From Holophagae bacterium (GTDB lineage Bacteria; Acidobacteriota; Holophagae; Acanthopleuribacterales; Acanthopleuribacteraceae): a stretch of 64,000 bases of DNA. The stretch covers positions 248,001-312,000 of the forward strand of contig JAJCXM010000038.1 in the NCBI GenBank assembly GCA_029263455.1. The letters are read 5' to 3'. Positions 2,586-48,658 of this stretch are shown here, piece by piece (within the stretch, counting starts at the first letter, position 1; every line of letters starts with the position of its first letter). The position numbers and the translations under genes were made by a program. The notes beneath the pieces were generated by a model that saw nothing but the letters and a program-made list of their open reading frames with translations, ran no database searches and was not told where the DNA came from.

Positions 2586-5393
2586 ATGTTGTTCGTTAAA
2601 TCCTGGTGTCTTGCCCTGGTTACACTGTCCAGCCTGATGGCAGGGGATGCGCCATATGAAGTTTATGATCCAGCTGTTAAAGTCGGCCGGCTCGACAACG
2701 GCATGACTTATTACATTAGGGCTAATTCGCGACCGGAAAAACGTCTTGAATTACGCTTGATGGTAAATGCGGGATCGATTCTCGAGGACGATGACCAACT
2801 TGGCTTTGCTCATTTTCTGGAGCACATGGCATTTAATGGGACGGAACATTTTGAGAAGGCCGCATTAGTCGACTATTTGGAGTCAATAGGTGTGCGATTT
2901 GGTGCCCACCTCAATGCGTTTACGTCGTTTGACATGACCGCCTATATGTTGCAGGTACCTACAGACAATCAAGAGCAACTGGAAAAAGGACTGCTCATAC
3001 TTAGTGACTGGGCATCGCGCGTCAGCCTTCATACCGATGAAATCGACTTGGAACGTGGCGTCGTTATGGAAGAATGGCGCCGTGGCCAAGGTGCCAACGA
3101 ACGTATATTGAAGAAACAATTCCCGATCATGTTGCAAGGGTCGCATTACGCGAAGCGCAACCCTATCGGAACCCCGGAGATACTCCAGAAGGGGTCACCT
3201 GACGCGCTGCGGCGTTTTTATAAAGATTGGTATCGACCGGAGCTGATGGCCGTGGTCGCTGTGGGTGATTTTGAGATCGAGTCCATGGAGAAACAAATTC
3301 GTGAACTGTTCTCAAAAATCCCCAAATCTGAGAACCCTCGCGAACGGCTTGAATACGACATTCCCTTTCATGAGGAAACACTCTTTAGCATCGCCACCGA
3401 TCCCGAGCTGACTCATGGTGCGATTTCAGTTATGTACAAACACGAACCTCAAAAACGCGAGAAAATCGAAAACATGCGTCGGGAGCTTAAGGAAAGCATG
3501 TTTTTTGGCATGTTTAACCAACGCCTGCAGGAACGGGCACGTCAAGCGCCGCCGCCGTTCTTGTATGGCTACGCTAGCGAATTGAACTTTGTGCGTTCTA
3601 TCGGTGGCTTCACATTGAACGTTTTCTCTGCACCAGATCAAATTGAAACCGCCTTAGCAGCAGTGCTCGAAGAAGCGCGACGTGTGCAGTTACATGGATT
3701 TACGGCCACGGAAGTTGAGAGACAAAAACAAGATCAGCTGAGATCTTTGGATAAAGCATATGAGGAACGAGACAAAACCGAATCTGGTTCCTACGCGGTT
3801 GCATACATGTTCCATTACCTCGAAGGAGGGCCGATCGTTGGCATCGAGAAGCGACGGGAGTTAGTTAATTCTTGGATCAATGATATTGCGGTGGAGGAAA
3901 TCAACGGTTTAGTCGAATACTGGATGCGTGATGAGAACCGTGTCATTACGGTAAGTCTTCCCGAAAAAGAAGGGGTCGAGGTGCCTACGGAGCAAACATT
4001 GGCCTCTGTTTTCGAGCGCATATCTAAGGCGGAAGTGGTCGCGTTTGAAGACGATGTGTCAAGCGAACCATTGATGGCCAAACCGCCTGTAGCTGGAACA
4101 ATCGTTGCCGAACACACCTACGAAGAAGTAGGCGTAACCCATTGGAAACTTAGTAACGGGATTGACGTCTATGTCAAACCGACAGATTTCAAAAACGATG
4201 AAGTCATTTTCACAAGTTTTCGTAACGGCGGTCATAGCTTAGTGAGCGATGACGCGTTTGGGTCTGCTGTGTATGCGGATGGCTTAATTGAGGAATCGGG
4301 TATCGCGAACTTCTCAATTATTCAGTTAGAAAAGATGATGGCCGGACAAGTGGTTTCTGTCTCCCCCTATATCAATGAAATTACGGAGGGTGTTAACGGG
4401 AACGCCTCACCCAAAGACATGGAAACAGCGATGCAGCTGATTCACCTGAGTTTCACTTCGCCCAGACGCGATGAAGCGGCTTTTTCTTCTTTGCAGGCGA
4501 AAATAGCTTCCAGCGTAGAGAACCGTCTTGCGCGTCCTGAAACGAGGTATCGCGATCAATTAACCAAGCTATTAACCCAGGACCATCCACGGAAGCGACC
4601 GCCTACAAAGGAAGCGATTGATAAGATTGATCTCGACACCGCCTTAAACTTCTATAAATCGCGATTTGAGAATGCGGATGGCTTCACCTTCAGTTTTGTT
4701 GGGAACTTAGAACTTGAGTCTTTTAAAAGCCTTGTGACGACTTATCTGGCCTCACTGCCAGGGAAGCCTGCCGAGTGGAAGTTCAATGATATTGGCGTTT
4801 ATCCACCTAAGGGGAAAATTACCGAAGTCGTTAAGGCTGGCAAGGAGCCCAAGAGTCAGGTGGCCATGATTTCGTCGGCTTCTAAAGAGTGGTCGGCATC
4901 GGCTAGTGATGAGTTGAAAGTGGCCATTGATGTCTTAAATCTCATGTTGAGAGAAAAACTTCGCGAAGAGATGAGCGGTGTTTACTCTGTTTATGCCTAT
5001 AGTCAAATTGACCGCGACCCTCACGGTAAATATACATTTGGCATCATGTTCAGTTGCGACCCCGACCGTGCAGAAGAACTGATCGCTGCGGCTAATGCTC
5101 AGGTCGACGATCTGCGCATCAATGGTCCTTCGCAGAAGAACTTGGACAAGATCAAAGAAATAATGCGCCGTTCACGGGAAACCGACCTTAAGGAAAATCG
5201 TTTTTGGCTCAATGGCATCACGCGTTGCGTGCGTTACGGAACACCTATAAACGAGTTGGTCGTAAGCGAGGCTTGGATTGACGGGGTAAATGCCGAGATG
5301 GTGAAACGGGTTTCCGAAACTTATCTGAGTCGTGAAAACCAACTGACAGTGATTATGCAACCCGAGGAAAGCGATTCAAAGGGCGAGAATTAG
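2586..5393 (+). CDS. M16 family zinc metallopeptidase (pitrilysin/PqqL-like), exported
   Basis: A 935-aa periplasmic or secreted insulinase-family protease. The ATG at 2586 follows a strong TTTGGAGGAAG ribosome site and begins a signal peptide (KSWCLALVTLSSLMAG). The inverted zinc motif HFLEH places His76, Glu79 and His80, and the following MAFNGTEHF and later GVVMEEWRR supply the usual downstream glutamate. Two M16 halves follow: an active N-terminal half, and a C-terminal half from about residue 510 that lacks HxxEH, as in PqqL-type single-chain enzymes. Such enzymes cleave peptides inside a closing chamber. The role here is probably peptide degradation in the envelope. An earlier in-frame ATG at 2547 lacks a ribosome site. 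Confidence 0.93.
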   Translation: MLFVKSWCLALVTLSSLMAGDAPYEVYDPAVKVGRLDNGMTYYIRANSRPEKRLELRLMVNAGSILEDDDQLGFAHFLEHMAFNGTEHFEKAALVDYLESIGVRFGAHLNAFTSFDMTAYMLQVPTDNQEQLEKGLLILSDWASRVSLHTDEIDLERGVVMEEWRRGQGANERILKKQFPIMLQGSHYAKRNPIGTPEILQKGSPDALRRFYKDWYRPELMAVVAVGDFEIESMEKQIRELFSKIPKSENPRERLEYDIPFHEETLFSIATDPELTHGAISVMYKHEPQKREKIENMRRELKESMFFGMFNQRLQERARQAPPPFLYGYASELNFVRSIGGFTLNVFSAPDQIETALAAVLEEARRVQLHGFTATEVERQKQDQLRSLDKAYEERDKTESGSYAVAYMFHYLEGGPIVGIEKRRELVNSWINDIAVEEINGLVEYWMRDENRVITVSLPEKEGVEVPTEQTLASVFERISKAEVVAFEDDVSSEPLMAKPPVAGTIVAEHTYEEVGVTHWKLSNGIDVYVKPTDFKNDEVIFTSFRNGGHSLVSDDAFGSAVYADGLIEESGIANFSIIQLEKMMAGQVVSVSPYINEITEGVNGNASPKDMETAMQLIHLSFTSPRRDEAAFSSLQAKIASSVENRLARPETRYRDQLTKLLTQDHPRKRPPTKEAIDKIDLDTALNFYKSRFENADGFTFSFVGNLELESFKSLVTTYLASLPGKPAEWKFNDIGVYPPKGKITEVVKAGKEPKSQVAMISSASKEWSASASDELKVAIDVLNLMLREKLREEMSGVYSVYAYSQIDRDPHGKYTFGIMFSCDPDRAEELIAAANAQVDDLRINGPSQKNLDKIKEIMRRSRETDLKENRFWLNGITRCVRYGTPINELVVSEAWIDGVNAEMVKRVSETYLSRENQLTVIMQPEESDSKGEN

Positions 5394-34613: not shown

Positions 34614-35174
34614 TCAGCCTAGATTTTCGTGCTCGTTAAGTCGTTGATAGGCTTCATCGGCAATGGCGTTGAATCTACGTTTGAGCCTTGCATCTGCGTG
34701 AGCGCAATTGGCAACCACCTTCGCAGCCCAATCAATATATTTTCGACGCCGATCGGTACTCCAGTTTGAAGGAGGTGAATGGGTTACGTCTTCGACGTTC
34801 GATATTTTGTCGGCCAGCTTCACAAACGCGGCACCCTTTGTCAGGTGAGCGGCATGTTCGATCTGCAATTGTTTACGGTCGTGTTTAGGCAGCTGCTTAT
34901 CGTCGGTGACTTCCTGAACCATCTTACATACACGTTCACCGAACAATCGGACCAGTTCCTCAACCGATGTATCCGTGTCTTCAAGCGTGTCGTGAAGGAT
35001 GGCTGCGGCCAGGATCTCAGCGTCCTTGACGTTAGCGATGTCGGCGATGAGTCGAGCGACGTAAACAGGATGATTGATGTAAGGGGACGCACCAACGTCT
35101 TTACGGCGTTGATCCTTGTGTTTTCGCGCTGCAAAGTCGATTGCCGTTAGCAGCAACGCATAATCGTTCAACAT
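34614..35174 (-). CDS. HD-domain (p)ppGpp hydrolase, MESH1/SpoT-hydrolase-like
   Basis: A 186-aa single-domain HD protein. It has ARKHKDQRRKD, PYINHPVYVARL (His35), AAAILHDTLEDTD (His61-Asp62, Glu65-Asp66), FGERVCKMVQEVTDDK, then VKLADKISNV. This is the Mn-dependent ppGpp 3'-pyrophosphohydrolase layout of SpoT and MESH1, without synthetase, TGS or ACT domains. It degrades alarmones or related nucleotides such as NADPH in MESH1. It is the last gene of the long minus-strand operon, 12 nt after PPK2, with a GAGAGG ribosome site. Linking it with PPK2 suggests control of nucleotide alarmones. Confidence 0.86.
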   Translation of the reverse strand: MLNDYALLLTAIDFAARKHKDQRRKDVGASPYINHPVYVARLIADIANVKDAEILAAAILHDTLEDTDTSVEELVRLFGERVCKMVQEVTDDKQLPKHDRKQLQIEHAAHLTKGAAFVKLADKISNVEDVTHSPPSNWSTDRRRKYIDWAAKVVANCAHADARLKRRFNAIADEAYQRLNEHENLG

Positions 35175-35186
35175 GACCTCTCACAA

Positions 35187-36062
35187 CTAACCGTTTTCTT
35201 GTAGTACCTTACCTAAGCGTTTCATCTCTGCCAATTCATCGGCGGAAAGCTTGGGGTACTTGAGGTTCAATGACTTGAGGGTGTCGACTACAATCTTTGC
35301 AACCGACATGCGCATATAGCTCTTACTATCTGCAGGAATCGCATACCAAGGCGCCCAAGGCCTCGATGTTTGGCTTAATGCATCCTCATAGGCAGACATG
35401 TAGGTATCCCAATGTTCTCGTTCCTTGACGTCACCAGCGGCAAATTTCCAGTTCTTTTCCGATTCTTCTATTCGGGCAAGAAAACGGTCCCGCTGCTCAT
35501 CTCGCGAGACATTTAGCCAAAACTTGATGACGACGGTTCCATTGCGCGCCAGATGTTTTTCGTGATCTCTGATGGATTCATATCGATGGTCCCACACCTT
35601 TTTTGAGATACAATCGGTGGGCAGTTTTTGATATTCCAAAATGCCTGGATGAACGCGAACGATAAGTACTTCTTCATAATAACTGCGATTGAATATGCCA
35701 ATGCGGCCGCGTTCCGGCAACCTTTTAGCAGTACGCCATAAGAAATCGTGGTCTAACTCTTCGTCGGAAGGTTTCTTAAACGAGAATACTTGGCAGCCCG
35801 CTGGATTTATGCCGCTCATCACGGCTCGAATGGTGCCATCTTTACCTGCCGCATCCATGGCTTGAAAAACCAATAGAACGGCGTGCCTATTGTCGGCGTA
35901 CAGTTGGTGTTGCAGTTCTGATAACTCGTTGGTGAGTTTTTCGAGTTGTAGTTCTTTCTCTTTTTTCTTGGGTGCGTCTTTGGGCGGCGATGTAGGTGAC
36001 TTCGCAACCTTGAAACGTCCGTTGAATGGCACCAAATAGGGACTATCTATCGCTTCAAACAT
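35187..36062 (-). CDS. Polyphosphate kinase 2 family protein (PPK2)
   Basis: A 291-aa single-domain PPK2. Walker A QAMDAAGKDGT (67-77), the downstream RGRIGIFNRSYYEEVLIVRVHP, and the lid region with DHEKHLARNG are all present. PPK2 enzymes phosphorylate nucleoside mono- or diphosphates with polyphosphate, or make polyP. The subclass is not certain, but the charged N-terminus and single domain fit class I or III. The ATG follows GGGAGGAATCC, 12 nt after the AAA+ gene. It is part of the PspA/ABC/AAA operon. It might supply NTP or GTP to that system, or counterbalance the MESH1-like hydrolase next door. Confidence 0.9.
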   Translation of the reverse strand: MFEAIDSPYLVPFNGRFKVAKSPTSPPKDAPKKKEKELQLEKLTNELSELQHQLYADNRHAVLLVFQAMDAAGKDGTIRAVMSGINPAGCQVFSFKKPSDEELDHDFLWRTAKRLPERGRIGIFNRSYYEEVLIVRVHPGILEYQKLPTDCISKKVWDHRYESIRDHEKHLARNGTVVIKFWLNVSRDEQRDRFLARIEESEKNWKFAAGDVKEREHWDTYMSAYEDALSQTSRPWAPWYAIPADSKSYMRMSVAKIVVDTLKSLNLKYPKLSADELAEMKRLGKVLQENG

Positions 36063-36074
36063 GGATTCCTCCCG

Positions 36075-37802
36075 CTAACTCCGACTCAAATACCACTTCA
36101 ACTCTTCAATCTGTTTATTGATTTCAACATCGCTCATAGCACGCAACCGTTCAGGTAATAGTTTTGGGTAGGAACAGTGAAGTGCGGCGATTAGCGATTG
36201 ATATTCGCGTTGTGTCTTAATGGATTTACTGGCGTACCAGCCACTCAAAACATCAAGCACCGTGATCTCCGGTTTCTTTCGTCGCTGGGCCATAACTTCC
36301 GCCACAAGGTTACGGTAGTCGCGCGCTGAATAATAATCTGTTTCCTCGACGATCTCTTCGATCGATTTACCTAAATTAATACTCTTTCGTTTAAACATTT
36401 CTTTGACAAAGGCTTCACGGGTTTCGCCTTCTAAATCGAAAATGGGTACTTGAATCGGAGCACGGCTTTTGATATCAGGATCCAATTCGTCAGGTCGCGA
36501 GGTCATCATGCCCCACAACACTTTGCCCAAGTTTTGAGGGTTGCCCATCATCTTGATGATGTTGCCAGACAAACGCATCTCGGTCTGGTGCGTTCCACCA
36601 GAATGCACACTCCCGAAGGCAGTGTGCGCCTCATCAACGAGGATGAGGATTTTACCGAAGGTGCTGATATGCCAGCGTAATAATTCAAAGAAACGATCTG
36701 TTTCCCCGAAGAACGATCCGCGAATGCCGGCCAATTCAATAACTACGCGACCGGACTCGGCGGCATAGGCTTCCAGTTGATATGTTTTTCCTGCGCCATT
36801 TGGTCCCGAAACCAGAATGGCTGAAACGGCTGTATCCACATCTTCACAGCGTTCAAAGATGGATTTGAAGATGGCGCCTGTTTCCTTGTAGCCAATGATG
36901 TCTTTAGACGTGTGTGCCGGATACTTGACCCGAATGATGTCGCCCAATTCCGCTTGTAGGATTTCATTGACCTGGCTGACCACCAGTTCTTTTGTGATGG
37001 CGGTGGAAGTCCTACGTGCTTCTTCGAGCATGTCTTTTAAGTGGGTGAGTTTGAGGCCCGCCGTATTCTCAATATAACGACCCTTGCCATTCTTGAATCG
37101 AATCTTGGGACCTTCACCATTGAACCAGTTCACGAATGCTTCACGATCGTTCTTATCTGGTAATTGGATTTCGTAATGCGTGCAATGGGGTAGGGCGTTA
37201 ATTTTGTGATTGATTTCGGACTTCACGTCGTTGGCCAATACCAAGAGGTCGGGACTATGTGTGAAATTAGGATGATTTACCCAAGAAAGAAAAACCACCA
37301 GACGTTGCCGGTCTAGGTCACCTAAACGACCAAAATCGCCAGTGGGAAACAGGGCCCCTGCATATTGAAACAGCACGCATAGAGGCTTGATGTGGGATTC
37401 AACTTTTCTGACACGGCAAAATGCCTCCTGCATGCCTCGTAAGAGAACAAGTGCTGGAAGCGGGCTATGGCGGCTGGAATCGATAAGTCGAGACATCTGA
37501 TCGCGACGATCTTTGGGGACAACGACGCCGTCTTTTGATTCGCAGATGCGAATTACCTCCATCTCGGTAGGTTTATCGGGAAATGAAATTCCGCCGGCTA
37601 TATCCATACGTACGACGTTGAATTTTTCCCGTAGATAGTCAACCAGAGTCATCTCGAAAGCAGAGAATGATTCCTTGTTTTGGTTCCAAAAGAGCCCATG
37701 TGTGTCACCGGTTAGCATGACGATATTTTTGCGCCGTAGTTGGTAGGCTCGGCTCAGGGCTTCAATGAATTCAGGTCGTTCTTTGGTCTTTTTGGCTGTC
37801 AT
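36075..37802 (-). CDS. AAA+ ATPase (Vps4/CDC48-like clade), two modules, second active
   Basis: A 575-aa AAA+ protein. The N-terminal part (about residues 10-220) resembles a degenerate AAA module or binding domain (VMLTGDTHGLFW, then LVVFLSWVNHP). The C-terminal AAA module has Walker A GPNGAGKT (333-340), pore-like GIRGSFFGETDRFF, Walker B ILILVDEA (385-392), sensor MMTSRPDELDPDIKSR with a likely arginine finger, and a lid after about 460. This classic AAA layout remodels protein assemblies. It overlaps the ABC ATPase gene by 32 nt. Because a PspA-like (ESCRT-III family) gene is in the same operon, I infer a Vps4-like role on that polymer. Confidence 0.85.
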   Translation of the reverse strand: MTAKKTKERPEFIEALSRAYQLRRKNIVMLTGDTHGLFWNQNKESFSAFEMTLVDYLREKFNVVRMDIAGGISFPDKPTEMEVIRICESKDGVVVPKDRRDQMSRLIDSSRHSPLPALVLLRGMQEAFCRVRKVESHIKPLCVLFQYAGALFPTGDFGRLGDLDRQRLVVFLSWVNHPNFTHSPDLLVLANDVKSEINHKINALPHCTHYEIQLPDKNDREAFVNWFNGEGPKIRFKNGKGRYIENTAGLKLTHLKDMLEEARRTSTAITKELVVSQVNEILQAELGDIIRVKYPAHTSKDIIGYKETGAIFKSIFERCEDVDTAVSAILVSGPNGAGKTYQLEAYAAESGRVVIELAGIRGSFFGETDRFFELLRWHISTFGKILILVDEAHTAFGSVHSGGTHQTEMRLSGNIIKMMGNPQNLGKVLWGMMTSRPDELDPDIKSRAPIQVPIFDLEGETREAFVKEMFKRKSINLGKSIEEIVEETDYYSARDYRNLVAEVMAQRRKKPEITVLDVLSGWYASKSIKTQREYQSLIAALHCSYPKLLPERLRAMSDVEINKQIEELKWYLSRS

Positions 37803-38727
37803 GGTCTTGATCTGATCCCCATTCTGCTGCTGATACGGTTTGATAGGCGTCGGCGTGGCTCAAGTCGAATTCGTGGATGTGCTGTGCGAAATCGGGATCG
37901 AGACCGCGGCGTCTGACATCCTCTAGCATGGCAGCCAATTCGGCTGAATTCTTGAAGCTTGTTGGCTTGGGATGGCCGCCAGGAATGGCGCGATCAGTTA
38001 CGATCTTCGATCCCTCGTTATCTTCTTTAGCGGTTTTGTAGAATTGAGAAAGGACGATTAGGCGACTGCCCAAGAACAATGCCTCAACTAAGTCGTGGGT
38101 GACGAAGAAGACGGTCATTTTTGTCCGTTCCCACTGCTCAAGGATGAACAGTTGCATATCGGTACGTGTGTTGTCGTCCAAGGCCCCAAACGGTTCGTCC
38201 ATCAATAGGATTTTCGGTTCCATGATCATGGCTTGCGCAATGGCAACGCGCTGACGCATACCGCCAGAAAGTTGATGAGGATATTTGTTGAGGTCACTGC
38301 CAAGACTCATTCGGTCCAGCATTTCCTGTGCTTTTTCTTTGTTATGACGCCGGTGTTGCGCTAATTTGGCGCGACGGACGTAACGACTCACGAGGCCAAA
38401 CTCTTCAGCCTCTAAGCCGAAAACAACATTTTCAAGCACCGTCATGTGCGGGAACAAAGAATATTTCTGGTACACAATACCGCGATCGCGATCGGGTCCC
38501 GTAACAGGCTTTCCAGCAATTTCGATATGCCCCTTCGTGGGTAATTCAGATCCCAATATGAGGCGTAACAACGTAGACTTCCCGCAACCACTTGGTCCCA
38601 GAAGGGTTACGAATTCGCCCTGGCGGACCTTAAGGTCCACATCGTTGAGGATCATACGCATGCGGCCCTGGTCCGGGTATGCCTTATAAACATTGTCTAC
38701 GTGGAGAATCAATGGCTGATCATTCAT
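37771..38727 (-). CDS. ABC importer ATP-binding protein, SsuB/TauB type
   Basis: A 318-aa ABC ATPase. It has GPSGCGKST (Walker A), IVYQKYSLFPHMTVLENVVFGL (Q loop), LSGGMRQRVAIAQAM (signature) and LLMDEPFGALD (Walker B), the form of nitrate/sulfonate/taurine importers. It has a C-terminal extension beyond the usual 260 residues. The start is ATG 38727, sharing one base with the permease stop (TGATG). A frame starting at 38811 lies inside the permease gene. Together with the permease and SBP upstream it forms a complete importer. Solute class not determined. Confidence 0.92.
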   Translation of the reverse strand: MNDQPLILHVDNVYKAYPDQGRMRMILNDVDLKVRQGEFVTLLGPSGCGKSTLLRLILGSELPTKGHIEIAGKPVTGPDRDRGIVYQKYSLFPHMTVLENVVFGLEAEEFGLVSRYVRRAKLAQHRRHNKEKAQEMLDRMSLGSDLNKYPHQLSGGMRQRVAIAQAMIMEPKILLMDEPFGALDDNTRTDMQLFILEQWERTKMTVFFVTHDLVEALFLGSRLIVLSQFYKTAKEDNEGSKIVTDRAIPGGHPKPTSFKNSAELAAMLEDVRRRGLDPDFAQHIHEFDLSHADAYQTVSAAEWGSDQDHDSQKDQRTT

Positions 38728-39536
38728 CAGGATTCCCCTCGCCATGTGTATCTTTTTTCGATCCAGAGTCTCAATAACGCGTCCGCGGTAAACGCCAGCA
38801 CGCTCATCCAAATGACATACGGAATGATGATGTCCATGGCAATGTATCGTCGAACCACAAATATTCGGTATCCAAGACCAGCGGATGCCGCCAACGATTC
38901 GCCGGCAATGAGGAATAAGATCATCGCCTTGAAATTCAAACGGATCGTATCAAGCACGCCCGGGATGATTTGAGGCAGGACGATTCTGTATGTGATTTCA
39001 AAGTCAGATGCGGCCAACGTGAAGCCTTTGATGGTCTGTTGCTTCGGGATTGCTTTTGCACGCAAATAGGTATCCAACACGATCGTTGGAAACACGCCTA
39101 ACAGAATCAAAGCAACCTTTGAGGTTTCGCCTAACCCAAAGACAATGAATAGGATAGGCAGAAGCGCTAACGCCGGAATTTTGTCGACAAACAACATGAA
39201 TCGCAGAAATAGATGTTCAAGGTACGGGAATACACCCATATACAGTCCAAGTAATACGGCCAAAACCAAAAAAGCGAGACTGAGACCAAAACGTTTTGCA
39301 CTAGCTTTTGAGTCCAACAACAATCGGTACTCATCATTGCGGTCAGGTTCAAAGGCCGTCCGGCTGAAGCCGTCCCACATTTCGCTGAATGTGGGAACGA
39401 CTTTGTCTTTGGGGTTCTCTTTGTGTCGACTGTGCGCGGTGTATGCATAGGCAATCACGCATAGAACAAACAGCGATGCAGACAAACTCCATGCGGCAGC
39501 TCGGCTTGGCCGAGCCGTTATCTTAAAGAACCCCAT
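38727..39536 (-). CDS. ABC importer permease, SsuC/TauC type
   Basis: A 269-aa membrane permease with about six TM helices. The cytoplasmic EAA-like loop reads TLAASDFEITYRIVLPQIIPGVLDTIRLN, with the conserved Gly. IPALALLPILFIVFGLG is typical of the SsuC/TauC/NrtB family. It forms the channel of the importer made with the ATPase at 37771-38727 and the SBP at 39548-40600. It starts 11 nt after the SBP gene stop. Confidence 0.92.
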   Translation of the reverse strand: MGFFKITARPSRAAAWSLSASLFVLCVIAYAYTAHSRHKENPKDKVVPTFSEMWDGFSRTAFEPDRNDEYRLLLDSKASAKRFGLSLAFLVLAVLLGLYMGVFPYLEHLFLRFMLFVDKIPALALLPILFIVFGLGETSKVALILLGVFPTIVLDTYLRAKAIPKQQTIKGFTLAASDFEITYRIVLPQIIPGVLDTIRLNFKAMILFLIAGESLAASAGLGYRIFVVRRYIAMDIIIPYVIWMSVLAFTADALLRLWIEKRYTWRGES

Positions 39537-39547
39537 AATCGGTATTC

Positions 39548-40600
39548 CTACAACTTGCCTTCGGCCGCTAGTTGCATGAAGGTGGCGTCATAGCGCATGC
39601 CGATGGACGACTTGTCGCCTTGAACACTACCATCTGGATAAGCGATGCCTACCACATCAACCGACCGAGCGTTTTCGCCAAGCAAGCCATACCTGAAACA
39701 GAATTGACGGACCAAATCCATCTTTTCTTTCAGCTCATCGCTCCTGGTGTAATCAACGGCCGCTTGCGCGTTATAGAACATAGCCGTGGTTTTAAGTTGA
39801 TTCTTGAATTCAACGGTCGAGCAACCGGCTGAATTGGCCATGACAGCGAGTGCCTTTTCGGCATCGGCCCCGCGCTTAGACATGGTGTCCATGACTTCAT
39901 ACCAAGCGCCTGTTAGAGCTTTAGCCAGTTTGTCGCTTTTCTCCATGACCTTACTGCGTACGACCATCATGTCGATGATTTCTCCAGGAATATCAGCTGA
40001 TGTGAAAATCTTATTCACGCCGGGCGTTTGTTCGATTTCCATAACGATCGGGTTCCATGTGATCACAACTTCTTGTGAGGTATCAGAAATGAAGATTGGC
40101 CCAATATCGCTATCCGACGTATTGATCAGCGATACGTCTCGCTCTTTTATATTATTTTTCTCAAGGCAACGCGCTAACAAGTAGTGCGATACAGATAGCT
40201 CCACCAAACTAACCTGTTTCCCTTTGAGACCCTGAATGTCGACGTCATTACGAGTGAGAATGGCGTCGTTGCCGTTTGAGTAGTCGCCCACAATGATGAC
40301 GGTACTGTCAATGCCTGAGGCAGCTGGCATATCGAGACATTCCATGTTTGTCATGACACAGGCATCGATTTGTTCAGAGACATACGCTTCGACTGAAGGA
40401 ATATAGTCCATGCGGATGAGTTCAATATCAATATCGTATTTGTCAGCCCACTTTTTGAGGACCCCTGAATGGCCCGCGTAGTCCCAAGGCATCCAACCAA
40501 CATAAATTGACCAAGCAACCTTGTATTTCTCTTTTGCCATAGCTGGCAAGGCCGTAAATGCCAATGCGACAGCTATAGCCATCCATATTTTATTGCGCAT
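39548..40600 (-). CDS. ABC transporter substrate-binding protein (NMT1/SsuA-like)
   Basis: A 350-aa periplasmic SBP. The ATG at 40600 follows AAGGAG, and the signal peptide ends in TALPAMA|KEKYKV. YKVAWSIYVGWMPWDYAGHSGVL is the NMT1/TauA opening, and the type II SBP fold continues through LKGKQVSLVELSVSHYLLARCL. It binds a small organic or sulfonate-type ligand and delivers it to the adjacent permease. The ligand is unknown. The frame extending upstream to 40699 overlaps the PspA-like gene and is not used. Confidence 0.91.
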   Translation of the reverse strand: MRNKIWMAIAVALAFTALPAMAKEKYKVAWSIYVGWMPWDYAGHSGVLKKWADKYDIDIELIRMDYIPSVEAYVSEQIDACVMTNMECLDMPAASGIDSTVIIVGDYSNGNDAILTRNDVDIQGLKGKQVSLVELSVSHYLLARCLEKNNIKERDVSLINTSDSDIGPIFISDTSQEVVITWNPIVMEIEQTPGVNKIFTSADIPGEIIDMMVVRSKVMEKSDKLAKALTGAWYEVMDTMSKRGADAEKALAVMANSAGCSTVEFKNQLKTTAMFYNAQAAVDYTRSDELKEKMDLVRQFCFRYGLLGENARSVDVVGIAYPDGSVQGDKSSIGMRYDATFMQLAAEGKL

Positions 40601-40610
40601 ACAAAACTCC

Positions 40611-41441
40611 TTAGATCTTAGGTCGATCGTCTTCCTTTTCTTTGGTCTCAACTTTTTGCTCACTTTCGCCGCCATCACGTTCGGCTTTGCGGGCTGCAAG
40701 CATCTGGTCTAGTTTGGTACGAGCGGTCGATTCGCGACCGGCCTTTTGGTAGGCTTTGTCTTGCACCTTAACGTCCGCACCAGCAAGTTTCTCTGTGATT
40801 CGTGCTTTGGCAGTCAACTCACGATTGGCTTTAAGAACCGATGAGATAGGTCCGCGATCGATACTAGTTTCAAGTCCTTGCAAACGATCGTTGAGTTCTA
40901 CGATTTGTTTTGCGGATACGAAATCGGCGACCGCTTCTGCTTTTTGGGTCGGTAACTTTTCTATTTCGCGTTGCATCTCTTGTAGTTGCAGCATGTAACG
41001 TTCCATGGTTGCACTTGTATCTTCAACGTCTTTATTAAGCCGTGCTTGCATGGACTCGATCTCATCAACACGACTCTGAAATCGTTCAAATGCTTGAGCA
41101 TGCTTGTCGTATTCCGTTTGATTGCCATCGGCTTGTGCCTGTTCAGCCAGGTTCAATGCACCTTCACGTTTTGAAAGTAGAGCATCTTCTTCGGTGTTTA
41201 GGTCTTCAAGACGTGCACGTTTCTCTTCCAAAACGGTTTCGACTTGGGCGATGGCGTCACGTAGCTTTTGGTATTGGGCGACCATGTCGTCTTGGTGCAT
41301 ATCAAAGGCTGCAGAAATACCGTCAACCGAGCCTGTAAATTGGGCGTCCGCTGCACCAAGTATGTAGCGTGCCTTGCGCCAGTTCCAATAACGAAAATAT
41401 CGAAAAATGGCCCGAATGATGCCAACTCTTTGTTCACTCAT
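40611..41441 (-). CDS. PspA/IM30 (ESCRT-III family)-like coiled-coil protein
   Basis: A 276-aa, almost entirely helical, highly charged protein. The N-terminal segment IIRAIFRYFRYWNW is amphipathic, followed by long coiled coils with QVETVLEEKRARLEDL and QSRVDEIESMQARLNKDVED. This matches the PspA/IM30/Vipp1 layout of an amphipathic helix plus helical hairpin that polymerises on membranes. The match is by architecture and not by a unique motif. The charged Lys-rich tail is an extension. The ATG 41441 overlaps the upstream stop (TGATG) after GGGAGGAA. In this operon it may be the structural polymer acted on by the AAA+ ATPase. Confidence 0.72.
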   Translation of the reverse strand: MSEQRVGIIRAIFRYFRYWNWRKARYILGAADAQFTGSVDGISAAFDMHQDDMVAQYQKLRDAIAQVETVLEEKRARLEDLNTEEDALLSKREGALNLAEQAQADGNQTEYDKHAQAFERFQSRVDEIESMQARLNKDVEDTSATMERYMLQLQEMQREIEKLPTQKAEAVADFVSAKQIVELNDRLQGLETSIDRGPISSVLKANRELTAKARITEKLAGADVKVQDKAYQKAGRESTARTKLDQMLAARKAERDGGESEQKVETKEKEDDRPKI

Positions 41442-42418
41442 CAAATTCCTCCCGCAAATAGTAAATGGTTGAAGCCAAACACCATCAATGGCTGTCTATT
41501 CTGTTTTTTTTTACTTGCATTCATATACATCTTGTCTTCATCGCTAGGGCCACCGCTTTCGATTTCCCTCAATTTATTTTCAACCCGTCGGGCGGCCGCG
41601 ACAGCTTGTTCTAATTTATGAACCGTGTCGCCGTGTACAACAAGCTCCCCTTTGTCTAGTAGCTGCGATACTTCCAACATGGTGGTTTCTAAAGCTGCCT
41701 CAATCACCTCACTTTGCGCAAGGTACTGATGCATTTGATCTGTTTTCTGTTTATGCAATTCAAGTCGAGTTTGGTGGCTATGGACTTTGGTTCGAATGGC
41801 GTCGATTTGGGTCTGGTTGTATCCCGGGCGACTTTGCAATCGTCGAATGTCGGCTGACCAAGCAACGATCTCTTTCTTAAGCAAGCGAATATCAAATTTA
41901 TCGAGCAAGCGGTGAGTATCCAGTGCGGCGCGTAAGCACGCGAGCCCTTCCTTATAGCTTTGCTCGGCCATGATTAAGAATTTCTGGACGTTTGGGCGTT
42001 CCGCCGCATTAGCTTCGTCTATCAGGAAGTCCCGCAGCTTTTTAAAAGCCTGCGCCAGTTCGCGCGACTCCTTGGCACCTTCACGAAATGAAGCACGTGC
42101 ACACTCGCGATGAAGCGCCTCAGCCATCTTCGAGTGGTCTTGAAAACGGTCCCGCTTCATGCGATCGACGAGTTTTTTGGCAATCTTGTCATAACGAAAA
42201 AAGTATTGGTAAACAAAAGAGCCAGCGGCCAGGATTCCACTTGCAACTAAGACAGCAAATGATGGACGGTCAAAACTGATCATCAGCATGTACAAAGCAC
42301 TTACGACGGAGGTCGCAGCTGGGAATATTGTCGTGGGGAATTGGATTGCTTCCTTGAAGACAAATCTTTGAAGTTGGCCCTGGGTCGGCTTGCCTTTGGA
42401 CCTATTCGAATCAGTCAT
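41441..42418 (-). CDS. Uncharacterised two-TM coiled-coil membrane protein
   Basis: A 325-aa protein with two adjacent TM helices near residues 32-48 (FPAATSVVSALYMLMIS) and 53-74 (FAVLVASGILAAGSFVYQYFF). A large cytoplasmic helical region with coiled coils follows (LHRECARASFREG, then LRLLKKEIVAWSADIRRLQ-type heptads). I do not recognise a named family. It lies between an SBP-OmpA gene and the PspA-like gene, coupled to both by one-base overlaps (TAATG and TGATG). It could be the membrane anchor or receptor for the PspA-like polymer, which is inference from position. Confidence 0.7.
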   Translation of the reverse strand: MTDSNRSKGKPTQGQLQRFVFKEAIQFPTTIFPAATSVVSALYMLMISFDRPSFAVLVASGILAAGSFVYQYFFRYDKIAKKLVDRMKRDRFQDHSKMAEALHRECARASFREGAKESRELAQAFKKLRDFLIDEANAAERPNVQKFLIMAEQSYKEGLACLRAALDTHRLLDKFDIRLLKKEIVAWSADIRRLQSRPGYNQTQIDAIRTKVHSHQTRLELHKQKTDQMHQYLAQSEVIEAALETTMLEVSQLLDKGELVVHGDTVHKLEQAVAAARRVENKLREIESGGPSDEDKMYMNASKKKQNRQPLMVFGFNHLLFAGGI

Positions 42419-43965
42419 TAAAGGGAATTCCCTTCCACTGCAATAAACTCAACACGTGATTGTCGATATTGGAAAGCGCGAAGTGATTCACCCGGTTTCT
42501 GTGCCGGTGGAATGTTGGAGCCGACACCCTTAGCGTGCACACGATTTGCCTGGAGGCTATGAACAGCCTTTAAATATTGCAACACAGACTGAGCACGTTC
42601 AAGAGAAAGTTTTTTGTTTTCAGCTTCATCACCGCCTGGCCCCGTATGCCCACGGATGATGATGCGATAGTTTGGGTAGTTATGCTGCAGGAGACTGGCG
42701 ATTCGGTCGACCGTATCTTTTCCCTCCTGAGTCAGCAAATTATTCCAACTTTGGAAGGTGATGGGCTCAACTCGAAAGACGCCAACCTCGCCCAAACGAT
42801 CCCATTCTGTGCTTGAAAGCTCATCAAAATCGACAAGCCCTCGATGAGCCGCAACGGCTGCTGTTCCTTGGGACTTAAATAATTGTTCGATAAACGTGCT
42901 GTTGGTTATTAGATACGGATTTCCGGAAAGGGGATCGGAGGTTACTTTACCTGTCCGCATGAGAACATCCGTGTTCGCGATGATAGTGGTGATCATGCCG
43001 TCTTTGGCAGGTCGATCCGCACGTGTCGTTATGCCAAACAGATCGCTACAATTCTCGTTTAAGTCAAACCAGTCGATTTTTTCGATGATAGCTTCGATTT
43101 CTTTGCTTTTCAGATCGGTGGAGCGACCCATTTCGTCTAACATCAATTCACGGTTGTTGTTATAGACACTGATAGTACGGAAATAGTGTTTAAGGAAGTC
43201 GGCGGCAAGATCGGGCTTTCTTTTTAAGAATTCGCGGTTAAATACAAAAACGTCAACAATGTAGCCGGAAAACTTATCGGAGCCCCAAATATAGTTCATG
43301 CCTGGAAGGCGCATCGCGCGCGAGAGATCTGGTTCCCACAATACGAAAACATCGCCTTGGTTCTTTTCTGCCAGTTTAAATACTTCCCTTGAACCGCCCA
43401 CCTCGACTCGCCAATTCTGATCCTGTCTTAGTTGTGCCAGGTCAAAGTCGGCAATGGTCAAATCAATGAGAAATTCACTTGGGGAATCCGAGGTGTAGAC
43501 AATGCGGAGACTTGCGTCATTGAGATCATTAATTTTTTTTGTCGGTAAACGATCGGCGTAACCAACTATCCCGTCCGCGCCTTTCGATTCACTGATACCG
43601 GCAACAATCACGCCCGGGTATTGATGTGCCTTACCGTGGGTCAGGTACGAATTGACGGGAAGCACAATACAGTCGTATTCGCCGGCCGAAAATTTGGCTA
43701 AGCGATCGGCGTAGGCACCGCCGTCATCGGTGAATTGAATGCCAATGCCGTCTCGGGATGCCGCTTTGCGCATGGATGGCGAAGTCATGAACCAATATCC
43801 CAAGAAATTGTCACCACCTATGCGAATAGTTCCTTTGGAATGAGAGGCGTCGGATGTGCCAATTTGGTTCTGCTCAAATATAAGCGGCATCGCGAGCTTC
43901 CAAGCAAGTAAACCCAGCCCTCCAATGAGGATAAGTAATATGGCTCCGGCCGTCGTCTTTCTCAT
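42418..43965 (-). CDS. Membrane-anchored SBP-OmpA fusion protein (second copy)
   Basis: A 515-aa protein with an N-terminal TM anchor (GAILLILIGGLGLLAWKLAM), a periplasmic substrate-binding domain from about residue 45 (KGTIRIGGDNFLGYW), and a C-terminal OmpA-like domain (YRIIIRGHTGPGGD, then LSLERAQSVLQYLK and YRQSRVEFIA). OmpA domains bind diaminopimelate in peptidoglycan through an Asp and an Arg. Here the usual GHSD/GHTD Asp is Gly (GHTGP) while the Arg in QSRVEF remains, so wall binding may be weakened. The gene's TAA shares a base with the next ATG. It may hand ligand to the importer or act as sensor. Confidence 0.85.
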   Translation of the reverse strand: MRKTTAGAILLILIGGLGLLAWKLAMPLIFEQNQIGTSDASHSKGTIRIGGDNFLGYWFMTSPSMRKAASRDGIGIQFTDDGGAYADRLAKFSAGEYDCIVLPVNSYLTHGKAHQYPGVIVAGISESKGADGIVGYADRLPTKKINDLNDASLRIVYTSDSPSEFLIDLTIADFDLAQLRQDQNWRVEVGGSREVFKLAEKNQGDVFVLWEPDLSRAMRLPGMNYIWGSDKFSGYIVDVFVFNREFLKRKPDLAADFLKHYFRTISVYNNNRELMLDEMGRSTDLKSKEIEAIIEKIDWFDLNENCSDLFGITTRADRPAKDGMITTIIANTDVLMRTGKVTSDPLSGNPYLITNSTFIEQLFKSQGTAAVAAHRGLVDFDELSSTEWDRLGEVGVFRVEPITFQSWNNLLTQEGKDTVDRIASLLQHNYPNYRIIIRGHTGPGGDEAENKKLSLERAQSVLQYLKAVHSLQANRVHAKGVGSNIPPAQKPGESLRAFQYRQSRVEFIAVEGNSL

Positions 43966-43985
43966 GCGGTTCCCTTAAGACTGCA

Positions 43986-44726
43986 TCATGGATTCTGCTC
44001 GAATGACTGCACGTCAAACGAGGGTAATTCTGCCAGAGTCTGTTCAAGCCCGTGTGCTAGGTCTTCGAAACTATCAGCCGCGCGATAAGAAGTGGCATAG
44101 CTCCGTAGTGGGTGATTGGAATCTACGCAAAGACCTATCGCGTAGATAGGAAACCCATGTTCCATGGCATAAATCGAAGCCTGAGGTATTGAGTCTGCAA
44201 TGCCGTCCGTTACGACTACAATGCGATACTCACCGTAACCCAATTGTTTCTTGTACTGGTGCACTAATTGATTTGTCGCATAAACAATCGATTCAGAGAG
44301 TGGCGTTCCTGATCCTGCGTAAACGGCATTCAGTTTTTGGACAAAGTCTCCGCGATTGCCCTGGCCCAAGGGGACAGCCTCCCGCTCGCCATTATTATCA
44401 AACACATATAGACCAATATTGATGTCATCTGGGATCTTAGCTAGAAACTCCGTCACCGCCCATTGTGCACCTTGTAGTTTGGTCGCAAACGACGCATCGC
44501 CACTGCAATCGCCGTCAGGTGCATCTGCCATACTGCCACTGCCGTCAAAAACAAAATAGAAGTTACGTGTCAGCGATACTTGGGCGTCTGGATCCGAATC
44601 GTTCAGGGCAATTTCTGTGCGTTTGATATTGGCTAGAACTTGTGAAAGCTGTTGGGTAGATGTTTCAGAAGAATGGTTGGAGCCACACATGGTAAGAACG
44701 AGGCAGATGCCAACGAGATATCTCAC
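43986..44726 (-). CDS. VWA-domain protein, probable lipoprotein
   Basis: A 246-aa exported protein from GTG 44726, three bases after the preceding stop. A short signal (YLVGICLVLTMCGSN) ends at Cys14 with a lipobox-like LTMC, atypical at -1. The VWA domain has the MIDAS motif FVFDGSGSM, plus GSGTPLSES and VVVTDGIADS, so the metal site appears intact. VWA domains form metal-dependent protein contacts. It lies between two SBP-OmpA genes and could bridge them or bind a partner in the envelope. Confidence 0.85.
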   Translation of the reverse strand: MRYLVGICLVLTMCGSNHSSETSTQQLSQVLANIKRTEIALNDSDPDAQVSLTRNFYFVFDGSGSMADAPDGDCSGDASFATKLQGAQWAVTEFLAKIPDDINIGLYVFDNNGEREAVPLGQGNRGDFVQKLNAVYAGSGTPLSESIVYATNQLVHQYKKQLGYGEYRIVVVTDGIADSIPQASIYAMEHGFPIYAIGLCVDSNHPLRSYATSYRAADSFEDLAHGLEQTLAELPSFDVQSFEQNP

Positions 44727-44729
44727 GCG

Positions 44730-46433
44730 TTAATCCAACGGCACAAATTCATCGAGTTCAGCCTCGATCTGTTTTATACGGAATACCACCCTGCGGTTGG
44801 CTGCCCATTCGTCTTTAGTGCGCGGAGGATTAAATTTCGGAGTGGAAATACCCATGCCAACAGATACGAACTGCGATTCATCAACCTTCATGCCTTTTCC
44901 CTTACAGTAGGCAAGGAAGCTTGTTCTAACTGATTGAGAACGCTCGAGCGACAAATTCTTTGCTTGTTGCTGCATTTGCGAGACTTCGATTGCGGGCTTA
45001 CCACCTTGTTTCGCTTTTAGAATCCCTAATGGATCCGAATGGCCCTCAACGATAATTAGCGCGCCCCCGTATGTCTCGGCAATCTCGAGTGCCTTTTGGA
45101 AATCACCTGCGTAACGAGAATCGCTAAATTCACTTTGGTTGGGGTCAAAGTTGATTTCGATTTGAAATAACGTGCCTTCCTCAGCCCAAGATGTGGATTC
45201 TACCGAAATGCGTTGCTCTACCTTAGATGCCACTTTTTGGCTGTCAAATTTGGGCTTGCTAGGTATCGCTTTAGCTTTCGAAAGACCTTTTGCTAACTCG
45301 GTGTAATCCCAATTGGCGTCATTTATCTTTACGCGGCCCTTCATCAAGCCCATGTCTTTGAAGTTCTTTTGAATTTCGTCTGTCACACGACTTAACGATC
45401 GCGTTGTCCCTTTTCCTGAAAAGAAAGAGACGTTGCCGTCAAAACCGACAAATTCACAGTCCGCCAAAAGGGCTTCGACGTCGGGCACGGCTTGCGGTGC
45501 GCCCAATAGGAGGTCTGCCGATCGGCTCATCAGCTGTTGGTAATCGGATTGGCGTGAACTCTTATTGGTCATCAAGTCTGCCAGCTGTTCCTGGCCCTTC
45601 ATTAAGGCATGCGTGAATTTCAGCATCTTAGAAGGATTCTTCTCAAAATAATCGGAACGTACAGCGTAGACATCGGCAATAATTCGGCTAGCTGTTTTAG
45701 TACTTAACAGGATGCGAGCACCTTTGACGGAACCCGATGAGCCCGTCCCCACATTGCCTCCTGATGTCAGGTTCAAGGCATCAGGAATAATGCACATAAT
45801 GGCGTCTAATGAATCATCAGCCAGGAATGCACTTACAGGGTCAACAATTGTGCCACTGTCTTGTACGGGCAAAGTTAGGTCAGGCAACCATTTGAACTTG
45901 ACGTCATTCAGAGAAACTCGGGCCGATGTCAGGAGATTCGCAGCATAGTCCATATGAGGACCGTAAAGCTGAAGACCAATCGTATCGCCTTTAAGTTGAC
46001 TTGGCTTTTTTGCCTTGCGAACTACCATGGCGTCTCCGCCATTGGACCAGGTCATTTGATATATAACGACCAAATCCAATCCATTGTCCTTAAAAACTTC
46101 GGCAGCCGCGTTGACCATACCCAATGTTCCGCGTATTAAAGGCGTCTTACCTTCAATGCAGTCCTTGACTTGGCTGGTGAAATCGTTCTGAACCACCAAT
46201 TCAACATTTAGGCCTTCGTCTTTGAATAAACCGGCGGAATCAGCGTAGATTGTTGCCACATCGCCGCCCCAAGTGATGAGCGGAACTTTGATCGTCCTAT
46301 CATCAACGCTCTTTTTCGAAGCGCTAACCGCTTCACTCATTGGCTTTGGCTCAAGATACGACAGCTTTTGCGCCAGACTTGGCAGCGTTGTTAATCCGGC
46401 AAAAATCGCGAGAAGGTATGCTCGTTTGACCAT
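44730..46433 (-). CDS. Periplasmic SBP-OmpA fusion protein (first copy)
   Basis: A 567-aa protein from ATG 46433 after AAGGAGGGAG. Signal peptide is LLAIFAGLTTLPSLA|QK. Residues 48-300 form an NMT1-like SBP (VPLITWGGDVATIYADSAGLF), and residues 425-560 an OmpA-like domain: IEINFDPNQSEF, VEGHSDPLG (wall-binding Asp present), LSLERSQSVR and ANRRVVFRI (Arg present). It therefore likely captures a small ligand and is fixed to peptidoglycan. It is the first of the eleven closely spaced genes, directly downstream of the FHA kinase gene, and the predicted promoter at 46529-46557 precedes it. Confidence 0.88.
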   Translation of the reverse strand: MVKRAYLLAIFAGLTTLPSLAQKLSYLEPKPMSEAVSASKKSVDDRTIKVPLITWGGDVATIYADSAGLFKDEGLNVELVVQNDFTSQVKDCIEGKTPLIRGTLGMVNAAAEVFKDNGLDLVVIYQMTWSNGGDAMVVRKAKKPSQLKGDTIGLQLYGPHMDYAANLLTSARVSLNDVKFKWLPDLTLPVQDSGTIVDPVSAFLADDSLDAIMCIIPDALNLTSGGNVGTGSSGSVKGARILLSTKTASRIIADVYAVRSDYFEKNPSKMLKFTHALMKGQEQLADLMTNKSSRQSDYQQLMSRSADLLLGAPQAVPDVEALLADCEFVGFDGNVSFFSGKGTTRSLSRVTDEIQKNFKDMGLMKGRVKINDANWDYTELAKGLSKAKAIPSKPKFDSQKVASKVEQRISVESTSWAEEGTLFQIEINFDPNQSEFSDSRYAGDFQKALEIAETYGGALIIVEGHSDPLGILKAKQGGKPAIEVSQMQQQAKNLSLERSQSVRTSFLAYCKGKGMKVDESQFVSVGMGISTPKFNPPRTKDEWAANRRVVFRIKQIEAELDEFVPLD

Positions 46434-46654: not shown

Positions 46655-48493
46655 TTAGTCCGGCAAATAGAGCAGCGATCCACCGACTTGACCAAACCAG
46701 AGCTGATCGTTGGGATGAACCTCAATTTCCTGTACGACTTGAACCTTATTGTGGAAGGTGAGGTTCAAGCTTCCTTCATCCCTAAGCGTTACTTTCTTAC
46801 CCTGGACATTAATGATTGCGTGCCGACGAGAAACGGATGCGCTGGGAACACGAATATGGGCGTCTTGAGTTCGGCCAACTACATTATCGCCAGGCTGTAA
46901 GGGAAAGCGATGATTTTGCCCATTCTTGCCGTAAATCACCAGGTAATAACCACTTCGACTCTTTTCGGGAAGAGGGCCAAAATGGGTTGGAAGACCTTTG
47001 CCCGCAGATAATTCGGTACCGCCTAGAATTTCTATGGGCGTGGTTTGATCGAGTTTATTCTGCGACGCATTACGCGTACGCAGCATATGCATCATTTCTT
47101 TGAACAGGGCGACTTCTTCTTCGAGAACGGCATTCAAACCCTGAAGCAGTTTCAAATTAGACTCGGCCACCGTTACATTTCCATCTTGTACAGCTTTGCG
47201 GAATTTCTGTCGTGCTTGGCGTACCTGCTCATCAACCTTACGGTGAGCGTCCAATCTGTCGTGGTACAAGCGAGTTAGCTGATCGTGGTCTTCTGGCGTT
47301 GCATTGCCGAGTTGAGACAAGCGTTCATAGTGAAGTTGGGCTTTCTCTAAAACTTTGGCTTGTAGTGCTTCGTCAAAGTGGTGTCGTTCCTCATTGATAC
47401 ATTCATCCAACATGCGTCGTTCCCGGGAAAGGGTTGCACCGAGTTGTTCTAAGTGATGGAGTTGTTCTTTTGCCTGGTCAAACTGACCTAAATCCAAACT
47501 AGAACGAAATTGGTTTCGAGCTGTCTCAATACGGTCACTGGGCGCGTCATGAGTGCCTGAGGCATCAGTTTCGAAATCAAATCGTTTACTCGATTTTGCT
47601 TTTGTCTTGATTCGGAACATAGCGCTCAAGCTACCCGAAAACTCACCCGCACTTTGATAACGCTGTTCTTTGTTCAGGTGCAGGGCCTTGGCCATGAATA
47701 CATGAAACGCACGTGGGTCCAATCCGAAGACAGGGTCCGGATCAAGCAAAGCTGGTTCACCACTCACAATGCGGTAGATGATCTGACTCAACGATTGCCC
47801 GGGGAACGGTGTTTGACCGGTCATCAATTCATGGGTCATGATGGCCAGGGCGAAGAGATCTGCTCGGAAATCGACGGTCTCATTGAGCATTTGTTCAGGA
47901 CTCGCGTATTTGACCGTCCCTAAGAATTGACCGGTTTTGGTCATCTTATCTTCAACTAACTTGGCTACACCGAAATCGAGGATCTTGATACGGCCTTTGT
48001 CGGTCAACATGATGTTTTGGGGTTTGATGTCGCGGTGGACAATGCCTTCATTGTGCGCTGCTTCAAGGGCCGCACAGATTTGGCCGACCATGTCGATCAC
48101 GGACGCTGCGGTGATTTCTTTCCGGCGCTTCATTTTTTCCGCCATGGACTCACCGGAGACTAATTCCAGCACAATGAAAGGCGTGTCGTCTTGTTCCCCC
48201 ATATCGTAGATGACAACGATATTGGGATGATGAATTTTGCCGCCTATTTGGGCTTCTCTAAAAAATCGTGCTTTGAATTTGAGCTGATCTTCTATGGTGT
48301 CCAGCACTTCCATGCGAATGGTTTTGATCGCAACTTTACGTTTGAGCACTGGGTCATTGGCGCAATACACCTTACCCATAGCGCCTTCACCTAGCACTTT
48401 CTCCAGTTCATAACGGCCGATGTTTTGTAGTTCCATAAGAATATTGGGTCGAATGTCGACCGTTAGACCTTCACGGGTGTTGTAAGCGTTCAT
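46655..48493 (-). CDS. Ser/Thr protein kinase with C-terminal FHA domain
   Basis: A 612-aa protein from the ATG at 48493 (an ATG at 48436 or a TTG at 48556 is also possible; none has a clear ribosome site). The kinase domain has VLGEGAMGKVYCA, VAIKTI (Lys57), VHRDIKPQNI (Asp155), DFG (173-175) and GTVKYASPEQ. A coiled-coil middle follows, then an FHA domain near 520-610 (PGDNVVGRTQDAHIRVPSASVSRRH), which binds phosphothreonine. No TM segment is seen, so it is cytosolic. It lies upstream of the eleven-gene operon on the same strand and is the likely phospho-relay regulator of it. Confidence 0.9.
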   Translation of the reverse strand: MNAYNTREGLTVDIRPNILMELQNIGRYELEKVLGEGAMGKVYCANDPVLKRKVAIKTIRMEVLDTIEDQLKFKARFFREAQIGGKIHHPNIVVIYDMGEQDDTPFIVLELVSGESMAEKMKRRKEITAASVIDMVGQICAALEAAHNEGIVHRDIKPQNIMLTDKGRIKILDFGVAKLVEDKMTKTGQFLGTVKYASPEQMLNETVDFRADLFALAIMTHELMTGQTPFPGQSLSQIIYRIVSGEPALLDPDPVFGLDPRAFHVFMAKALHLNKEQRYQSAGEFSGSLSAMFRIKTKAKSSKRFDFETDASGTHDAPSDRIETARNQFRSSLDLGQFDQAKEQLHHLEQLGATLSRERRMLDECINEERHHFDEALQAKVLEKAQLHYERLSQLGNATPEDHDQLTRLYHDRLDAHRKVDEQVRQARQKFRKAVQDGNVTVAESNLKLLQGLNAVLEEEVALFKEMMHMLRTRNASQNKLDQTTPIEILGGTELSAGKGLPTHFGPLPEKSRSGYYLVIYGKNGQNHRFPLQPGDNVVGRTQDAHIRVPSASVSRRHAIINVQGKKVTLRDEGSLNLTFHNKVQVVQEIEVHPNDQLWFGQVGGSLLYLPD

Positions 48494-48658
48494 TCTACTG
48501 AATGACGGTAAACGACTCAACCTAGGCTTGCTACAATCGTGATGAGGTTGATTCAACAGACGGCTGAATCTTGGCTTGATGTTTCAATCAATGACATTCA
48601 TGCGTTAGAATGCGTCGGTTTGTGAAATCCGCTGTCGATGCCCATTAGGAGGAGTCAA

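Follow-up and report, generated by a model that had tools for sequence, protein, structure and literature searches.

In a 64,000-nucleotide stretch of a Holophagae bacterium genome (Acidobacteriota, Acanthopleuribacteraceae; GCA_029263455.1, contig JAJCXM010000038.1, positions 248,001 to 312,000), hereafter the window, we analysed an ABC importer operon in which two fusions of a substrate-binding protein (SBP) with an OmpA-like domain, here called SO1 and SO2, flank a gene for a VWA protein. SO1 keeps the Asp through which OmpA domains bind the cell wall and has no membrane anchor; SO2 has lost this Asp and is anchored in the membrane. On this pattern, the two related receptors of one importer may well divide between them the wall grip and the membrane anchor that are normally joined in a single SBP-OmpA fusion, and the VWA protein and a PspA-like/AAA pair may be coupled to them. 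An initial annotation, made from the letters of the window alone, had already described the two fusions around the VWA gene, and its genes and coordinates were right, all of them lying on the minus strand. The three genes are as follows, with coordinates given here and below as window positions.

44730..46433, minus strand: SO1, periplasmic SBP of the NMT1/SsuA/TauA class with a C-terminal OmpA-like domain (567 aa; cleavable-type signal)
43986..44726, minus strand: VWA protein with an intact MIDAS motif (DGSGS) (246 aa; PF00092 at 9.9e-11)
42418..43965, minus strand: SO2, predicted inner-membrane-anchored SBP with an OmpA-like domain (515 aa; Gly442, Asn450, Arg457)

Wall-binding residues and anchors of the two fusions

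Binding of diaminopimelate by A. baumannii OmpA requires Asp271 and Arg286 (PMC6572160), and in PorE the peptidoglycan fragment is held by Asp, Asn and Arg side chains (PMC7192894). When the two fusions were aligned to solved OmpA domains, the column of Asp271 held Asp467 in SO1 and Gly442 in SO2. Residue counts were then taken over proteins ranging from Acidobacteriota to a Vibrio plasmid: the Asp was present in all 13 SO1-type proteins and in 0/14 of the SO2 type (Gly 7, Ala 4, Arg 2, Ser 1). The retention of the Asp in the first fusion and its loss in the second, both claimed in the initial annotation, were thus confirmed, and the Asp split is a conserved feature of the gene family, not the quirk of one gene. 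As a control, further OmpA domains of this class and of neighbours were compared, and they had Asp in 22/29 and Ser in 7/29; isolated losses of the Asp therefore occur, one loss alone would be unremarkable, and it is the strict split of 13/13 against 0/14 that constitutes the finding. Another OmpA-domain family of this class (L017, L019, L021, L024, L030, L033, L035) carries Ser where the wall-binding Asp would be (GHTSS.G...LS.RRA).

The pocket Arg had been assigned to the motif NRRVVF, which proved to be the wrong residue: alignment with 3td3 rejected this motif and placed Arg286 of A. baumannii OmpA at Arg498 of SO1 (LSLERSQSV), which corresponds to Arg457 of SO2 (LSLERAQSV), so that both fusions keep it. 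It is present in 12/13 of the SO1-type proteins. SO2 aligns gap-free, with the canonical 15 residues between the Asp column and the Arg in 14/14, and no other Asp fills its pocket; the nearby Asp446 was rejected as a substitute, since the alignment is gapless and the position is variable (Ser in L047 and L048). The OmpA domain of SO2 also matches the Pfam model at 6.8e-16, above the cut-off, and shares with OmpA/Pal/MotB-type domains (PF00691) the fold and the motif G-H-[ST]-x...N...LS..R, from which its family differs by the missing Asp. The SO1 family departs from these domains in another way, as it lacks the pocket Asn and carries an insertion between Asp and Arg: the spacing is 31 or 74-75 residues instead of the canonical 15 (in the window protein, 16 residues are inserted between Asp467 and Arg498), and the OmpA match of SO1 is weak (0.0029; 18.3 bits against a cut-off of 27.2).

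The well-preserved SO2 pocket raises the question of whether Asn and Arg continue to let SO2 bind the wall, or a wall peptide in modified form, the change of the Asp tuning affinity or specificity without removing binding. Asn450 (at Arg-7) and Arg457 are each kept in 14/14, as is the spacing, and Asn and Arg side chains do hold diaminopimelate in PorE (PMC7192894). The replacement of the Asp by Gly, Ala, Ser and even Arg, however, suggests that the constraint on this column was lost; A. baumannii OmpA needs Asp271 for binding (PMC6572160), and the LS..R motif may persist for the general fold. We regard continued binding by SO2 as unlikely.

An N-terminal transmembrane helix was found in SO2 and none in SO1, in agreement with the anchor difference that had been proposed. 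The N-terminus of SO1 is signal-like and ends in SLA-Q. The helix recurs in those SO2 proteins with a complete N-terminus and in single SBP-OmpA fusions (see below), and SO1 N-termini are signal-like in general. With regard to the SBP halves, SO1 matches NMT1 at 7.5e-9, and SO2 matches TIGR03427, the family of a putative urea ABC transporter SBP, at 8.7e-10 and also SsuA-type structures; the predicted models of both match SsuA/TauA/THI5-type structures despite low model confidence. Both halves therefore have the fold and the conserved motifs of the NMT1/SsuA/TauA importer class. The class motifs (S-x-G-x-D and others) are kept in SO1, SO2 and the free SBP of the operon, each in its own conserved version, so that three binding proteins for one importer, as first suggested, is a reasonable interpretation. 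By score, the free SBP belongs to TIGR03427, to which SO1 and SO2 are only distantly related. A structure-based comparison of the SO1 and SO2 pockets was rejected because of the low confidence of the models.

The operon, its VWA gene and its distribution

The nine genes of the operon run on the minus strand from 46433 down to 36075, in the order SO1, VWA, SO2, membrane coil protein, PspA-like coil protein, free SBP, permease, ATPase and AAA protein. The remaining six genes and the next gene downstream are listed below.

41441..42418, minus strand: membrane protein with a coiled-coil tail and, at its N-terminus, two hydrophobic segments (the Vibrio form has a homolog too)
40611..41444, minus strand: coiled-coil PspA/Snf7-like protein
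39548..40699, minus strand: free SBP, clear member of TIGR03427 by score (471.9 bits, cut-off 333.9)
38727..39536, minus strand: ABC importer permease (BPD_transp_1)
37771..38811, minus strand: ATPase of the ABC importer, its Walker A (GPSGCGKST) and signature (LSGGMRQR) both intact
36075..37802, minus strand: AAA ATPase of the CDC48/Vps4/spastin class (Walker A GPNGAGKT, Walker B ILILVDEAH)
35187..36062, minus strand: PPK2 polyphosphate kinase, shared only with the closest relative

This larger system, with its PspA-like and AAA proteins and the tie of the VWA gene to the SO1/SO2 pair, had been missed in the initial annotation. The PspA assignment of the window coil protein is itself weak: a direct Pfam PspA match was obtained in one distant ortholog only, and in the PDB its profile brought up nothing but unrelated coiled coils, all of them weak matches. 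In the simpler modules, where the assignment is strong, a true PspA takes its role. A sequence search found no solved relatives of the free SBP.

The VWA gene lies between SO1 and SO2 at every locus showing all three and was found only together with SO1-type genes; none was detected with the module's profiles in 12 neighbourhoods of single fusions, and neither was a second SBP. Because it tracks the pair in this way, the VWA protein is the best candidate for a bridge between SO1 and SO2. Several of its orthologs look like lipoproteins, and the lipobox of the window protein is imperfect. Plasmid p380 of Vibrio coralliilyticus (L058 9869-12914) has just the VWA gene and an SO1-type gene, with neither SO2 nor importer, and the pocket Arg of this SO1-type protein is lost as well (NHSLILAEL).

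The gene order of the window is identical in relatives across several Acidobacteriota lineages, including Aminicenantes bins, and the same order was seen at two far more distant loci (L056 and L057). The two-fusion set is nevertheless rare, being present in 5/297 sampled Acidobacteriota genomes, and in 3/142 within the class of G326. A second form was found on plasmid pSEA2 of Vibrio alfacsensis (L050 9948-19310), in the order ATPase, SO1, VWA, SO2, membrane coil protein, TelA, SBP and permease. It differs from the window operon in that TelA (Pfam 4e-50) stands where the PspA-like protein would be and that an AAA gene was not seen near the module. A Vibrio "phosphate ABC transporter substrate-binding/OmpA family protein" is the SO2 ortholog by position and whole length (30% identity). 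Matches to SO1- and SO2-type genes were also obtained on V. rotiferianus and V. penaeicida plasmids; the Vibrio evidence consists of plasmid records only. In 296 genomes of the phylum of L049 (Bacteroidetes) there was no match, which shows little without a positive control.

With respect to the flanks of the operon, PPK2 is probably outside the module; it is followed by a small HD-type hydrolase-like gene, the two lying directly downstream on the same strand (34614-36062). On the upstream side, SO1 is closely preceded by a same-strand gene for a Ser/Thr kinase with an FHA domain (46655-48556), which is shared with the closest relative (69%) and was not found directly beside other operons. A guanidine or other riboswitch was rejected, as there was no Rfam match in the window.

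Single fusions and a possible origin of the pair

Single SBP-OmpA fusions were found in 35/396 sampled Acidobacteriota genomes. In the 12 neighbourhoods, the usual order is PspA, fusion, permease, ATPase, AAA; L116 and L122 are ordered differently, and a PspA or AAA gene was not detected in L119 and L121. In L117, the ATPase and the AAA gene are separated by a gene homologous to that of the membrane coil protein (3862-4758). The single fusions combine membrane helix and Asp, the Asp being present in 29/29 readable proteins; a thirtieth gene, L102 (G230:C12:13849-15422), was rejected as a case of Asp loss because a frameshift splits it into two frames.

In a tree of OmpA domains, SO1 and SO2 each formed one group among the single fusions (100/100 and 99/97), and the Asp state changed once. 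Each was one group in the whole-protein tree too, where SO2 joined the free SBPs on long branches. The simplest history suggested by these sequences is that single fusions came first and that SO1 would then have lost the membrane anchor and SO2 the Asp. As the loss of the Asp is one event, the 14 SO2 proteins are not independent cases; they show that the Asp-less state has been maintained over a long time.

The single event also bears on whether the Asp was lost by ordinary drift, in a domain retained for its contacts with proteins, with nothing divided between SO1 and SO2. The 14 proteins do not count as separate observations here, and the family with Ser in the control is likewise without the Asp. 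The split, on the other hand, is strict in both directions, coupled to opposite anchors and to the VWA gene, and common to Acidobacteriota and Vibrio, and drift appears to us an improbable account.

Since no SBP other than the single fusion was found next to the importer of the simpler modules, the fusions most likely serve the ABC importer. A tentative alternative, which we hold to be less probable than the divided pair, is that they are mainly sensors: SO1 at the wall and SO2 at the membrane would inform the PspA-like/AAA remodelling pair about the state of ligand or envelope, with the ABC unit as transducer. The constant pairing of PspA-like and AAA genes with the set in Acidobacteriota would fit such a role, as would the free SBP that the importer already has. 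In line with this reading, genome G280 contains a block of SO1, VWA, SO2, coil protein and AAA without adjoining importer genes; its contig ends on the SO1 side, however, so that importer genes were possibly missed. The same genome also has a five-gene module of PspA (Pfam above cut-off), one SBP-OmpA fusion, permease, ATPase and AAA. The single fusions beside apparently normal importers argue against a mainly sensory function, as does the Vibrio form with no AAA gene nearby.

A proposed divided receptor pair and its relation to known operons

In the division that we favour, the N-terminal helix of SO2 would keep it at the inner membrane, and its OmpA domain, having lost the firm grip on diaminopimelate, would let it work beside the permease, free of the wall. 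SO1, with no membrane anchor, would be held on the wall by the Asp/Arg pair of its OmpA domain, and the VWA protein would most likely bridge the two through a MIDAS-type contact. The ligand state of SO1 and SO2 would feed the importer and, through it, the PspA-like/AAA pair, which on the cytoplasmic side of the inner membrane would tie the set to membrane maintenance.

Several points weigh against this proposal. The pocket of SO1 is non-standard, with no Asn at Arg-7 and at least 16 extra residues between Asp and Arg, so that its wall grip is likely but not certain; SO2, with Asn and Arg in 14/14, may retain residual binding. The predicted structures have low confidence (mean pLDDT, the predicted local distance difference test score, 54.7 and 48.4) and were used for fold class only. 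Deep branches and stems of the trees are long, which makes the order of events uncertain. What the sequences themselves show is the conserved split of the Asp, the difference in anchors, the order of the genes, the tie of the VWA gene and the intact motifs of the importer; from these we infer the binding to the wall or its loss, the binding and delivery of ligand, the VWA bridge and the PspA/AAA coupling. It is a still more distant prospect, and one to which we give little credence, that SO1 and SO2, joined by the VWA protein, gauge the distance between wall and membrane or the state of the wall, and switch an ESCRT-III/Vps4-like (PspA/AAA) machine via the ABC importer.

Operons of this kind are known from comparative genomics. 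Ravi et al. (2024, mSystems, PMC11237479) described PspA/Snf7-AAA-ABC operons with a PBPB-OmpA protein, exemplified by OGG56892.1, and proposed that this simpler operon joins PspA/AAA membrane remodelling to the uptake of solutes and to contact with peptidoglycan. The window operon contains the same set, namely a PspA/Snf7-like protein, AAA ATPase, ABC ATPase, permease and SBP-OmpA fusion together, and the link between membrane remodelling and transport proposed there is the one proposed here. Their main text, however, describes one fusion, whereas the window has two, opposite in their anchors and in their pocket residues, together with a VWA protein and a free SBP. VWA, TelA and the loss or split of the Asp go unmentioned in that main text, and the supplementary tables may list the two-fusion form; our literature search on the TelA form and on Asp-less OmpA domains found nothing relevant in the collection searched. 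The interpretation given in the initial annotation is, as a whole, partly supported; its proposal that the two fusions may hold ligand at different places is a conjecture.

Some soil and marine bacteria carry this apparently divided receptor pair in an importer operon. The link proposed for the simpler operon came without a mechanistic handle. A natural pair that separates the membrane anchor from the wall-binding residue makes it possible to test directly which of the two attachments is needed by the system. The pair also points to the VWA protein as a specific partner, and the comparison shows a second form in which TelA replaces the PspA-like protein.
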